Positions 14,730 to 19,668 of a DNA stretch of 35,564 bases are shown piece after piece. Both the position numbers and the translations under genes were made by a program. A model generated the notes under the pieces. The model was not told where the DNA came from. It worked only from the letters and a program-made list of their open reading frames with translations, and made no database searches. This DNA comes from Candidatus Methylomirabilis sp. (GTDB lineage: Bacteria; Methylomirabilota; Methylomirabilia; Methylomirabilales; Methylomirabilaceae), in assembly GCA_002634395.1 (NCBI GenBank), contig NSJM01000027.1, positions 1 through 35,564 of the forward strand. Direction: 5' to 3'. How positions within the stretch are numbered: the stretch's first letter is position 1; each line of letters opens with the position of its first letter.

Positions 14730-14817
14730 AGGGCTAGGGTATAGGGTAAGTACGAGGAGAGAGTGCGCTGGTTGGTCTTTTTACCTATACCCTCTACCCT
14801 AACCCCTCAACCCTGCC
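14730..14817 (+). repeat. Heptad fold-back element A
   Basis: Directly after the stop codon comes a G-rich arm (AGGGCT, AGGGTAT, AGGGTAA; 14730-14750), then about 28 bp of spacer, then a C-rich arm of 7-bp units (ATACCCT, CTACCCT, AACCCCT, CAACCCT; about 14784-14814). The arms are complementary and would pair in RNA. The ribosome binding site GGGAGG of the next gene follows. Confidence 0.85.
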
Positions 14818-14832
14818 TTAAAGGGAGGTCTC

Positions 14833-15783
14833 ATGAGAGTGCTGGTAACGGGCGGGGCCGGTTTTATCGGATCGCATGTCGTAGACGCCTTGATCAGGGA
14901 GGGCCATGACGTTGCGGTGGTCGACGATCTCTCGATGGGTAAACGAGAGCAGGTCCATCCGGCGGCGCGCTTTTACAGGGTAGACATTCGTGACCGTCAG
15001 GCACTGGAGGAGGTCTTTCGAGCCGAGCGCCCGGAGGCGGTCAACCATCACGCAGCCCAGGGCAATCTGCGCCGATCGATGAGCGAACCGTCGTTTGATG
15101 CCTCCGTGAACATTGTCGGCTCGCTCGTGCTGGTTGAACTTTCTCTCGCCTACAAGGTCAAGAAATTCATTAATATCTCGTCTGGGGGAGCAGTCTATGG
15201 CGAACCCCAGCGGCTTCCGGTCGACGAGATCCATCCGATCCGTCCGGCATCTGTGTACGGGGTGAGTAAGTATGCCGTCGAGCAGTACCTGCGCCTCTTC
15301 GATGGGTCCGGGTTGGACTACACGATCCTGCGGTACGCCAATGTCTACGGTCCCCGGCAGAATCCCGCCGGGGAGGCCGGTGTCGTGGCGATCTTCAGCC
15401 GCCAGATGCTCGCCGGTGAGCGTCCGACGATTTTCGGCGACGGCACCAAGACCCGAGATTACGTCTATGTTGATGACGTTGTTGGGGCGAACCTCCTGGC
15501 GATGACCGAGACGCACGCTGCAGGCCGAAGTTATAATGTAGGTCTGGGGCGCGAGGTAAGCGACCGGCAGATCTTTGAGCTGATACGCAGGGCGGTGGGG
15601 GTCACGGTGGAGCCGATTCTGGCGTCGAAACGTCCTGGGGAGATCGACAGGATCTGCCTGGATGCTTCGTTGGCCAACGCAGAGTTGGGCTGGGAGCCGA
15701 CTATTTTCCTTGAAGAGGGAATCTCACGAAGTGTGGCGTTTTATCGGGCGGATGGGTCCTGTCGCGCACAGGAAAGCCGTTGA
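14833..15783 (+). CDS. NAD-dependent sugar-nucleotide epimerase/dehydratase (GalE-like)
   Basis: 316 residues, an extended short-chain dehydrogenase. The N-terminus VTGGAGFIGSHVVDAL is the NAD-binding GxxGxxG, HHAAQGNLRRS is the usual second motif, SSGGAVYGE precedes the catalytic YGVSK (YxxxK, near residue 146), and RYANVYGPRQ plus RDYVYVDDVV are typical of UDP-glucose 4-epimerase-like proteins. It probably interconverts UDP-hexoses (Glc/Gal or GlcNAc/GalNAc, or the uronic acids) for the glycan made by the neighbouring transferases. The substrate cannot be fixed from sequence. A good AAGGGAGG ribosome binding site lies four bases before the ATG, directly after the repeat arm. Confidence 0.9.
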   Translation: MRVLVTGGAGFIGSHVVDALIREGHDVAVVDDLSMGKREQVHPAARFYRVDIRDRQALEEVFRAERPEAVNHHAAQGNLRRSMSEPSFDASVNIVGSLVLVELSLAYKVKKFINISSGGAVYGEPQRLPVDEIHPIRPASVYGVSKYAVEQYLRLFDGSGLDYTILRYANVYGPRQNPAGEAGVVAIFSRQMLAGERPTIFGDGTKTRDYVYVDDVVGANLLAMTETHAAGRSYNVGLGREVSDRQIFELIRRAVGVTVEPILASKRPGEIDRICLDASLANAELGWEPTIFLEEGISRSVAFYRADGSCRAQESR

Positions 15784-15843
15784 ATTTTCTCGTGATTTCG
15801 GCTAGTCTGACGGGTATACGCATTGGTTAGAAAGGCTCCGTCA

Positions 15844-16830
15844 GTGGAGGTGGCTATTCGGTATCGACAGATCGTGACCCGTTTTCCCCAGAGGCGGCTC
15901 CTCGTCCTCGGAGATATCATGGTGGACGAGTATATCCGAGGGAGCGTGTCTCGGCTTTCTCCTGAAGCCCCGGTCCCGGTGGTGGAGGTAGAAGCCGAAA
16001 GCTTTCGCCTGGGAGGGGCGGGCAATGTGGCTGCCAACGTCCAATCCTTAGGCGGACAGGCGATCCTGGTAGGAGTGGTCGGCAACGATTTGCCGGGAGA
16101 ACGTCTGATCCATCAGCTTGAGGCTGTCGGGATAAAAAGTGATGGGGTCGTGCTGGACCGCACGCGTCAGACCACCATCAAGACTCGAGTTGTAGCGGGA
16201 AGCCAACAGATTGTTCGATTTGATCGCGAGAGCATGTCGGACCTCTCGAAGGAAGCCGCGGATCGGGTACTTGCACTGGCGGCAGAGCGGCTTGCTGATG
16301 CGGATATTGTGCTCATCTCGGATTACGCCAAGGGAGTGATCAGTAAACGGGTTGCTCGGCAGATCCTCTCTCTTGCACGACGTTTTCAGAAAACCATCGT
16401 CGTTGATCCGAAAGTGCATAATCTTCCTCTTTACAAAGGGGCCACAGTGATTACCCCAAACCATCATGAGGCGTTGGCGTTCGCCCATCTTCCCGCATGG
16501 GGGCAACAGGATCTCCTCGCCGTTGCGGGATCAGAGCTACTCCGGAAACTCGAGGTCAAGGCGGTGTTGGTGACGAGGGGAGAGCACGGGATGTCGCTGT
16601 TTGAGGATGGACGGGTCACGCATATCCCGGCAGTTGCTAAGGAGGTCTACGATGTTACGGGGGCGGGGGATACTGTCTTAGCCACCCTTGCCCTGGCTAT
16701 GGCCTCCGGCGCTTCCCTGCGAGAGGCGGCCGTTATCGCCAACCATGCAGCCGGTGTCGTGGTGGGAAGGGCGGGGACAGCAACCGTCAGCCGGGAAGAG
16801 TTGCTGGACGCGTTAAAAGACAGGGTATAG
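15844..16830 (+). CDS. hldA: D-glycero-beta-D-manno-heptose-7-phosphate kinase (HldE kinase domain, RfaE1-like)
   Basis: 328 residues from GTG 15844, chosen because AGAAAGG lies 8 nt upstream; TTG 15823 is possible but has no such site. It is a PfkB/ribokinase-family sugar kinase: LVLGDIMVDEYIRG, SPEAPVPVVEV and LGGAGNVAANV at the N-terminus, and the anion-hole and catalytic DVTGAGDTVLATLALA near the C-terminus. It phosphorylates heptose-7-phosphate at C1 on the way to ADP-L-glycero-D-manno-heptose for the LPS inner core. The adenylyltransferase domain fused in E. coli HldE is absent, so a separate hldC-like gene is expected elsewhere. The stop codon TAG is formed by the first heptads of repeat element B. 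Confidence 0.9.
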   Translation: MEVAIRYRQIVTRFPQRRLLVLGDIMVDEYIRGSVSRLSPEAPVPVVEVEAESFRLGGAGNVAANVQSLGGQAILVGVVGNDLPGERLIHQLEAVGIKSDGVVLDRTRQTTIKTRVVAGSQQIVRFDRESMSDLSKEAADRVLALAAERLADADIVLISDYAKGVISKRVARQILSLARRFQKTIVVDPKVHNLPLYKGATVITPNHHEALAFAHLPAWGQQDLLAVAGSELLRKLEVKAVLVTRGEHGMSLFEDGRVTHIPAVAKEVYDVTGAGDTVLATLALAMASGASLREAAVIANHAAGVVVGRAGTATVSREELLDALKDRV

Positions 16831-17007
16831 GGTGTAGAGTAAAGACTGGGTACAGGGTATAGGGGATAGGGTAAAGTCAGGGTGAAGGGTGTGGGGTGCA
16901 GGGTGTAGAGAATCGGGTAGAGACAAGCATTGATCGCTAACGGACTTCATTTATCTCTTACCCTATACCCTACACCCGATACCCTGTCTTTATATACCCG
17001 ACACCCT
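16820..17007 (+). repeat. Heptad fold-back element B, G-quadruplex-prone
   Basis: The longest of the set. The G-rich arm (16820-16920) has about 14 degenerate 7-bp units such as ACAGGGT, ATAGGGT, GTAGAGT, GTGGGGT and GCAGGGT. The C-rich arm (16957-17007) has TTACCCT, ATACCCT, ACACCCG, ATACCCT and ACACCCT. Two stretches on the sense strand (16848-16871 and 16880-16903) each hold four runs of at least three G with 3- to 4-base loops. It covers the entire gap between hldA and the pyrG ribosome binding site. Confidence 0.88.
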
Positions 17008-18626: not shown

Positions 18627-18685
18627 GGGTAGGGTAAAGAGAAGAGGGTCCGAGAAGGATCTTTCTAAACCCTAAACCCTAAATC
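18618..18685 (+). repeat. Heptad fold-back element C
   Basis: The G-rich arm starts inside the last codons of pyrG (AGGGTGT, AGGGGT, AGGGTAA; 18618-18637) and supplies its TAG stop. The C-rich arm (18665-18685) is TAAACCC twice plus TAAATCT, and runs to within two bases of the kdsA ATG. No Shine-Dalgarno sequence is present before that ATG. Confidence 0.85.
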
Positions 18686-18687
18686 TT

Positions 18688-19524
18688 ATGGCGCTGACAA
18701 AACAGGTTCAGATCGGCAAACTCACGCTTGGCGATGGAGCGCCGTTGCTCCTGGTAGCTGGTCCATGCGTCATCGAGAGTGAGGATCACCTGCTTCGGGT
18801 CGGCGAGGCGATCAAGGCGGTCTGTGAAACGCGCCGAATTCCCTTCGTCCTCAAGTCCTCGTATGACAAGGCTAACCGGTCATCAGGCCATTCATTTCGC
18901 GGTCCGGGTCTGGAGGAGGGGCTTCGCATCCTGGAGCGGGTCAAGGCGAAGCTGGACGTACCCGTAATCTCCGACGTTCACGACGTACACCAGATATCGG
19001 CCGCGGCTCAGGTGCTGGATATTCTTCAGATTCCGGCGTTCTTATGCCGGCAGACCGATCTGCTTGTCGCCGCCGCAAGGTCAGGTAAACCGGTCAATGT
19101 GAAGAAGGGACAGTTTCTATCGCCATGGGATGCCGGCAATATTGTGGAGAAGCTCCGATCTGCCGGTGCGGAGGCGATCATCCTGACGGAACGGGGAAGC
19201 AGTTTCGGCTATAACAACCTGGTGGTGGATATCCGCTCGCTTCCGGTCATGCGCAGCTTCGGTTACCCCGTCCTGTTCGATGTGACTCACAGCGTGCAAC
19301 TGCCCGGCGGCGCCGGTGATGCCTCTTCCGGGCAATCCCAATTTATCCCCTACATTGCGCGAGCCGCCGTGGCGGCCGGAATTGACGGGCTCTTCATGGA
19401 GGTCCATCCCGACCCTGCCTGTGCGCCCAGCGACGGCGGGAGCATGCTCCGCCTCGACGCGCTTGCCGGACTTCTGAATCAATTGCTGGAGGTTCAGCGC
19501 GTGGTCGCACCGTACGTCAACTGA
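18688..19524 (+). CDS. kdsA: 3-deoxy-8-phosphooctulonate synthase (Kdo-8-P synthase)
   Basis: 278 residues, full length. It condenses phosphoenolpyruvate with D-arabinose-5-phosphate to form Kdo-8-phosphate in the cytoplasm. Family landmarks are [10 protein letters not shown] at residues 21-30, [11 protein letters not shown] (PEP/A5P binding) near 55, the central [58 protein letters not shown] and [14 protein letters not shown]. The Asn in KANRSS and the Cys in ESE-flanked GPCVIE are compatible with either metal class; I do not assign one. Together with kdsD and kdsC downstream, three of the Kdo steps are encoded here. The start region is made of repeat element C and lacks a ribosome binding site. 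Confidence 0.97.
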
Positions 19525-19529
19525 AAAGA

Positions 19530-19668
19530 CAGGGTTAAAGGTATGGGGCAAAAACAGGGTGTAGGGTACAGGGGGTAGGGTGAGAGAGAAACGAAGTCGC
19601 CTGACGATCTCTCCTCGCCTTTACCCGACACCCGATACCCTAAACCCCGCACCCCGCACCCCGCACTG
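19530..19668 (+). repeat. Heptad fold-back element D, G-quadruplex-prone
   Basis: The G-rich arm (19530-19585) includes ACAGGGT, GTAGGGT, ACAGGGG and GTAGGGT, with four G-runs in 19557-19580. The C-rich arm (19620-19668) has ACACCCG, ATACCCT, AAACCCC, GCACCCC, GCACCCC and GCACTGA. It fills the gap between kdsA and the msbA-like gene and ends about five bases before the msbA ATG, which has no recognisable Shine-Dalgarno sequence. Confidence 0.87.

Follow-up and report, generated by a model that had tools for sequence, protein, structure and literature searches.

The short tandemly repeated repetitive (STRR) sequences of filamentous cyanobacteria are degenerate heptanucleotide repeats. The elements analyzed here are built from similar units and fill four gaps between genes in a 35,564-nucleotide contig of Candidatus Methylomirabilis sp. 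(GenBank assembly GCA_002634395.1, contig NSJM01000027.1; this whole stretch is hereafter called the window). Their closest described counterparts are the G-rich heptad repeats of Xanthomonas and Nostoc, and statements on this and the other papers cited below refer to parts of their text. Xanthomonas campestris has 70 convergent GGGAATC pairs and X. axonopodis has 75, and 65–70% of the Xanthomonas repeats lie between aligned open reading frames (ORFs), where sense-strand copies are close to the stop and antisense-strand copies close to the start; GGGAATC arrays form G-quadruplexes (G4) and were proposed as regulators, while the role of G-rich heptad repeats is termed unresolved (Rehm et al. 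2015, PMC4692102). A second counterpart is the intervening sequence (IVS) of Coxiella 23S rRNA: its inverted arms are cut by RNase III, its loop carries an S23 ORF oriented like the host transcript, and tandem heptamers, variable in number between strains, lie beside the 5′ RNase III cleavage site; a proposal is cited that the IVS is a mobile element whose ORF aids mobility, and for the S23/IVS proteins the structure is described as solved and the function as not known (Warrier et al. 2016, PMC4990558). In the tRNA-Leu intron of Nostoc, heptanucleotide repeats form a hairpin by pairing, and both their copy number and their class are variable (PMC3488679); the TAACTGA repeats of Beggiatoaceae comprise 169 direct sets and one indirect set with one main unit (MacGregor 2015, PMC4679880). 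Thus, paired heptads between aligned genes, heptad hairpins in the Nostoc intron and heptamers in one IVS are already known. S23 is not mentioned in the parts of Rehm et al. drawn on here, a link to S23 is absent from those of the Nostoc intron paper, and the text of MacGregor contains no match to S23 or 23S; a general link between S23 and heptad arms was not found in the open-access literature searched, most subscription journals being outside that scope. We describe such a link here: the full element consists of two facing arms of short units with a gene of the S23 (23S-rRNA-IVP) four-helix-bundle family between them.

The elements of the window and the genes around them are listed below by position; strand is given for genes only, and all arms were delineated by sequence.

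13296–14729, + strand: WcaJ-type undecaprenyl-phosphate glucose phosphotransferase (NCBIfam TIGR03023, above cut-off)
14730–14749: gap 1 (wcaJ-galE), G-arm, after the wcaJ stop
14783–14817: gap 1, C-arm, before the galE-like start; period-7 array
14833–15783, + strand: NAD-dependent sugar epimerase/dehydratase (GalE-like; below equivalog cut-off)
15823–16830, + strand: D-glycero-beta-D-manno-heptose-7-phosphate kinase (hldE/rfaE domain I; TIGR02198, above cut-off)
16822–16924: gap 2 (hldE-pyrG), G-arm; its first unit forms the hldE stop TAG at 16828–16830
16959–17007: gap 2, C-arm, before pyrG; both arms are shorter in the same-species genome G034
17025–18626, + strand: CTP synthase PyrG (TIGR00337, above cut-off)
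18617–18636: gap 3 (pyrG-kdsA), G-arm; provides the TAG stop of pyrG (18624–18626)
18668–18687: gap 3, C-arm, abutting the kdsA ATG
18688–19524, + strand: 3-deoxy-D-manno-octulosonate (KDO)-8-phosphate synthase KdsA (TIGR01362, above cut-off)
19530–19583: gap 4 (kdsA-msbA), G-arm, after kdsA
19621–19667: gap 4, C-arm, before the msbA-like gene
19673–21499, + strand: MsbA-like ABC exporter (TIGR02203, 555 bits against a cut-off of 602)

A preliminary description of this DNA, made without database searches, held that G-type heptads open each gap at the upstream stop codon and that C-type heptads close it at the downstream start, and this arrangement was borne out in all four elements (14730–14817, 16822–17007, 18617–18687 and 19530–19667), the first heptad units even providing the TAG stops of hldE and pyrG. 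The four gaps were described as consecutive; all four hold elements, but they are four of five successive gaps, the galE-hldE gap (15784–15822, 39 bp) containing no heptad element. No S23 ORF is present inside the four gaps. The long hairpins that had been envisaged are predicted for three gaps: scored against 200 dinucleotide shuffles per gap, RNA folding is better than expected for gap 2 (z −5.96), gap 3 (z −3.06) and gap 4 (z −3.98), and barely so for gap 1 (z −1.01, with 35 of the 200 shuffles equally good). The preliminary description had named folding no better than that of shuffled heptads as a ground for refutation, and a better fold was mostly not observed. Permutation of whole heptads within arms barely alters the fold (mean z −0.70, with 7 of 12 elements below zero and 2 of 12 at 1% or below), so that pairing resides in the unit class more than in a mirrored order of units; mirror pairing of ordered units kept by selection was accordingly rejected. 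The single orientation and coding-strand bias noted previously turned out to be uninformative because in an inverted repeat the G-arm precedes the C-arm whichever strand is read, so that orientation relative to the genes is unreadable.

Like the Xanthomonas and Nostoc repeats, the window elements consist of G3-N4 heptads, have, as read on the sense strand, the G-arm at the stop and the C-arm at the start, are mostly intergenic between aligned ORFs and rarely divergent, form convergent pairs and vary in length among relatives (PMC4692102). Unlike the GGGNATC or GGGGAYT units of those repeats, the units here are GGGTNNA, and they represent one of many heptad classes, which differ from one sister species to the next within a given gap and are linked to S23. 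The preliminary proposal of a distinct repeat class holds insofar as the repeat is genome-wide and often comes as paired arms; the pairing itself is not new, given the heptad pairs of Xanthomonas (PMC4692102). The TAACTGA repeats of Beggiatoaceae are likewise intergenic heptads, located mostly just upstream of start codons; unlike the window elements, they are not paired arms (PMC4679880). As in the 23S rRNA IVS, the inverted arms can form a stem, better than shuffles in three of the four window gaps, whereas, unlike the IVS, the window elements lie between protein genes. They carry no S23 ORF, a feature of some IVSs, and such an ORF is found in two of these very gaps in sister genomes.

Examination of the same gaps in 13 congeneric genomes, where contigs cover them, shows GGGT fold-backs, fold-backs of other heptads, other palindromes, or elements with an extra ORF; some gaps are short (16–17 bp) or the genes overlap, with little or no element. 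The other heptads include AGTGTCT, AGTTTCT, CAGCTAT/AGCTGAC, GTTCCGA/GGAACCC and GGTGCGA. The pyrG-kdsA gap holds an S23 gene with GGGT-type arms in genomes G021 and G026, along with a partial copy at a contig end in G027, and the kdsA-msbA gap holds an S23 gene with other heptads in G021, G024 and G032; two of the extra gap ORFs match PF05635 (23S_rRNA_IVP) with E values of 1.6e-39 and 7.9e-39. Outside the genes of the window, the atpA-atpG gap carries S23-bearing elements of the GTTTCGG type in G021, G022 and G028 and lone GGGT G-arms in four other genomes. Thus, identical gaps occur with and without S23 in sister species. Altogether, 35 PF05635 genes were identified in 12 of the 15 genomes of the genus.

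The association extends well beyond these gaps. We scored 100 S23 genes, namely all 35 of the genus and 65 of the 86 matches from other groups (from 33 genomes picked by hand, with titles such as Deltaproteobacteria and Nitrospirae, of which 22 had a match; the 21 matches left out were mostly weak or partial), dropping loci with a flank below 150 bases (3 of 35 and 1 of 65, respectively), and counted a locus as armed if, in the 220 bp on either side, the heptad score reached at least 20 of 28 on one side or an inverted repeat scored at least 18. By this rule, arms flank 30 of 32 S23 loci in the genus and 54 of 64 in the other groups, compared with 11/150, 5/84 and 73/740 control genes (long ORFs; Fisher P 1e-25 and 3e-38), 5/20 and 2/12 other genes inside the S23 loci, and none of 10 loci of Y1 transposases (8) and reverse transcriptases (2). 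Heptads alone, without recourse to inverted repeats, mark 26 of 32 genus and 33 of 64 other loci as against 15/234 and 55/740 controls, and a heptad score of at least 20 on either side was reached at 15 of 600 random places. The arms are sometimes made of 8-, 9- or 10-bp units, several alike on both sides (in loci L230, L249, L224, L250 and L215, such units are of equal length on the two sides); overall, the units are mostly heptads and, as a rule, the unit class is common to both arms.

The association of S23 with heptads thus holds in several bacterial groups, and it is seen on plasmids as well. Among the 40 plasmid S23 matches listed, 34 are cyanobacterial (manual count). We examined 20 loci out of 41 matching records, picked before their flanks were seen: 18 of the 20 are armed by the above rule, 19 when 8-bp arrays are counted, two of these without inverted flank pairing, and short-unit or inverted arms are present at 17 of the 18 cyanobacterial loci (both manual counts). 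The S23 gene of a Calothrix brevissima NIES-22 plasmid has AGGGTGT arms, the same class as in this window, and that of a Nostoc sp. C052 plasmid has GGGAACA arms. For two plasmid elements, folds begun inside the 5′ arm are modest (z −2.34 and −1.98), with the arms pairing in both minimum-energy structures. Several plasmid S23 genes sit within cas or tra operons: in three cyanobacterial plasmids (L368, L369 and L376), a short-unit-armed S23 lies between cas6 and cas4, or between cas10 and a cmr3-like gene (type III-B), and in L368 it is beside cas1d of type I-D. The two cas6-cas4 insertions carry different heptads.

The S23 type is tied to the heptad class. In a test of 69 S23 genes with a called heptad, restricted to sites without homologous outer flanks, 19 of the 45 pairs with at least 55% protein identity had a heptad unit in common (at least 6 of 7 positions), compared with a mean of 2.6 and a maximum of 7 under permutation (none of 300 reached 19). 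Outside the genus, S23-rich genomes are also rich in heptad arrays, in comparisons that ignore shared descent: 31 arrays were found in 303 kb sampled from 7 S23-rich genomes (6–11 S23 genes each) and one in 268 kb from 10 S23-less genomes (P 0.004 by genome); among Acidobacteriota, the figures are 28 arrays in 194 kb, in 9 of 14 S23-rich genomes (6–13 S23 genes), and 2 arrays in 106 kb of 6 S23-less genomes. The sample of G125, in which some S23 arms are built of 9- and 10-bp units, contains 5 period-9, 2 period-10 and 3 heptad arrays. With respect to orientation, crude ORF calls at the 100 S23 loci give 65 sense and 2 antisense genes between tandem neighbors, 19 further loci having no near neighbor called and 14 having non-tandem neighbors. 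Ordinary operon genes are also biased to the sense orientation, and therefore this bias favors an RNA-level process without proving it.

In the host genome itself, the GGGT pattern AGGGTNNAGGGTNNAGGGT yields 42 matches in 2.97 Mb, with none for the reversed control, spread over 20 contigs of the draft. The 7-bp phase noted at the outset is specific: in an own-genome sample of 621,848 bases, the stretches of which were partly picked for pattern matches, 37 runs of at least four GGG or CCC have period 7, and no other period between 4 and 21 accounts for more than 3 such runs. Among the 68 strict GGGT arrays of this sample, most of which come from stretches picked because of matches, 46 are intergenic and 22 lie within ORFs of at least 100 amino acids (by crude ORF calls and with each arm counted, so that an element counts up to twice). 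The intergenic arrays occupy 42 tandem, 3 convergent and 1 divergent gaps, against 194, 41 and 47 background gaps, an excess in tandem gaps (42/46 versus 194/282) with P 0.001; elements settle mainly at co-directional gene junctions, with S23 usually in the sense orientation. Whether the arms come in pairs or independently had been posed as a question for the whole genome. A complementary partner (score of at least 10) lies on the expected side of 32 of the 68 strict arrays and on the other side of 7, and neighboring arms within 100 bp follow the order G to C in 12 cases, C to G in 1 and C to C in 3 (within 150 bp, G to C 12 and C to G 4); lone arms exist nevertheless, for instance G-arms between atpA and atpG. 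At a stricter threshold, an inverted partner was found for 16 of 47 arrays of match-rich stretches, 0 of 10 from stretches picked regardless of matches, 2 of 6 in the G025 sample and 22 of 78 in loci of other groups. Thus, arm pairing is common, not universal. The 20 stretches picked regardless of matches span 243,580 bases and contain 10 heptad arrays, all classes considered. One locus (L048, 1277–3633) is a cluster of several GGGT fold-backs in about 2.4 kb. The GGGT pattern is present in all 15 genomes of the genus, this one included (3 to 75 matches). Beyond the genus, 9 of 20 genomes from the same order contain it, including one that has just as many control matches, and it was detected in none of 60 genomes from the rest of the class. 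The closest four relatives of the HldE protein, at 84–86% identity, come from metagenome-assembled genomes of Methylomirabilota.

On balance, we favor the view that the four gaps hold S23-less copies of a widespread small intergenic insertion element that acts like the 23S rRNA intervening sequence. Under this scenario, the transcribed arms would form a long, imperfectly paired stem open to cutting by RNase III, as in the 23S rRNA IVS, and such cutting would make insertion into an operon tolerable; the S23 ring may bind its own unit class and help the element to spread or to replace units; most copies would lose the S23 gene and decay to both arms or a single arm; and units would turn over in 7-bp steps. 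Mobility, RNase III cleavage and S23 binding are steps that we infer. The window elements would work like IVSs, but are not IVSs themselves because they lie outside 23S rRNA.

Several observations weigh against such an element. Between this genome and the same-species genome G034, 29 of the 31 loci compared (many of them overlapping) align and have their elements in place, and no fresh insertion was seen; neither a target-site duplication nor a clean empty site was recognized in the gaps compared, no systematic search having been made. S23 matches are absent from genomes G025, G034 and G023, which still contain 75, 35 and 31 heptad-pattern matches, so that S23 is not required for array upkeep, and the rule relating S23-richness to array abundance fails inside the genus; outside it, besides the shared descent that the comparisons ignore, two of the 7 S23-rich genomes (G099 and G121) have no heptad array in the sample. 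Neither arms of period 7–10 nor an inverted repeat are found at 2 of 32 genus and 9 of 64 other-group S23 loci, and annotated plasmid S23 genes with tandem neighbors (n = 16) include 3 antisense along with 13 sense cases, some of them near copies. From the literature, Xanthomonas repeats are generally without mobile elements nearby and have stable surroundings (PMC4692102), and in Coxiella, S23p is probably not produced, the RNA mattering more (Warrier et al. 2016, PMC4990558).

The best-surviving alternative, which we regard as rather unlikely, is that the arrays are simple repeats generated by polymerase slippage and hairpin-templated repair, with S23 being a passenger that uses them as landing sites. 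Slippage is cited as a proposed origin of abundant heptamers (Rehm et al. 2015, PMC4692102), and the lack of mobile elements nearby fits it, as do the lone arms, the persistence of arrays in S23-less genomes of the genus and a 7-bp length difference in one array between the two genomes of one species. A passenger, however, would not account for an S23 type that predicts the unit class at unrelated sites, for the atpA-atpG copies of S23 that bring GTTTCGG-type arms where S23-less sisters have GGGT units, or for the very few heptad arrays in the S23-less genomes sampled outside the genus.

It is improbable that the elements are hairpins that serve the host by stabilizing or uncoupling segments of operon mRNA, or bidirectional terminators. 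In favor of such a role, the intergenic arrays are concentrated in tandem gaps, and three of the four gaps fold better than shuffles. But the hldE-pyrG element varies in length within the species (between this genome and G034, its G-arm differs by 32 and 14 bases and its C-arm by 22), some sister gaps of 16–17 bp or with overlapping genes have little or no element, the order of units is mostly not kept for pairing, and one fold-back sits inside an ORF. By eye, there is no constant U-tract 3′ of the C-arm, and terminators were rejected on that ground. A role particular to lipopolysaccharide (LPS) genes, suggested by the preliminary description, is unsupported because heptads occur on 20 contigs, between ATP synthase genes and inside an ORF. 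Least probable of all are G4 elements regulating neighboring genes, as proposed for the GGGAATC repeats: the GGGT units do yield at least four G3 tracts spaced by 7 nt, like those of the G4-forming arrays, but regular G3 tracts are missing from sister-gap units such as AGTGTCT, CAGCTAT, AGTTTCT and GTTCCGA and from many S23-bearing arm classes (e.g., AGCTGAT, GTTCAAG, AATGGAG and GTAAGTC), so that G4 was rejected as the common function. As a general function, G4 formation and an LPS-specific role are both unlikely.

Two candidate movers were also rejected. A Y1/RAYT transposase (PF01797) has 6 matches in this genome and none in G026, G029 and G032, which nevertheless have 56, 33 and 19 pattern matches. 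A resident reverse transcriptase (PF00078) has a match somewhere in 4 of 7 S23-rich and 3 of 10 S23-less genomes, and the absence of a match in 3 of the 7 S23-rich genomes (drafts) argues against it as a required mover. At one locus (G021:C28:5886–6994, L283), a reverse transcriptase lies directly upstream of an S23 gene in an arrangement resembling a diversity-generating retroelement (DGR), and short-unit repeats flank S23.

Additional repeats of the window, which belong to other classes, are as follows.

13030–13122, no strand assigned: fifth heptad fold-back (93 nt), class GTTCAAC/GGAACCC, in frame inside a family 4 glycosyltransferase (GT4) ORF
27562–27610, no strand assigned: lone array of GAAGTGC heptads, a third class, beginning at the stop of ORF 26606–27565
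4357–4412: 21-bp unit repeated 2.7 times in tandem, close to the end of ORF 2911–4467

The glycosyltransferase insert, the fold of which is weak (z −1.24), is found at the identical codon in 11 genomes, this one included, and is 93 nt long in eight of them and 84, 72 and 30 nt in one each. Its left arm is GTTCAAC-like in 7 genomes, GTTTCGA in 2 and GTGCGAA in 1, the one remaining genome having a CCCCTCA-type run only. The right arm complements the left one in the GTTTCGA pair and in the GTGCGAA case, and roughly so in the window's own species; in four genomes, it is CTTCAGC-like and pairs poorly with the left arm. G022 and G028 have GTTTCGA/CGAAACC where the own species has GTTCAAC/GGAACCC. 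The heptad classes differ at one codon and at equal length; thus, arms can switch class, jointly or singly. This switch at a fixed site and length is the strangest observation of the analysis.

The X. campestris S23 protein XCC0516 has a known structure (2gsc), in which five four-helix bundles form a ring (PMC4990558). PF05635 is similar to Avd, a protein that DGRs cannot do without in retrohoming (PMC10053308). A broader and more tentative possibility, which we put forward with reserve, is that many bacterial heptad repeats (the present class, the Xanthomonas G-repeats and the cyanobacterial STRRs) could be S23-less relics of one family, in which the S23 ring would recognize its own unit class and rewrite or spread the arms, much as its relative Avd acts in retrohoming. 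If true, it would account for joint changes of class in the two arms of a single site at constant length. The tie between S23 and heptads unites two old puzzles, the origin of 7-base repeats and the function of S23 proteins, and both questions become testable through the finding that S23 genes go with arms of a class of their own. It also calls for caution in that heptad arrays may be the remains of such elements, a possibility to be considered before they are read as gene regulators or G-quadruplex switches.

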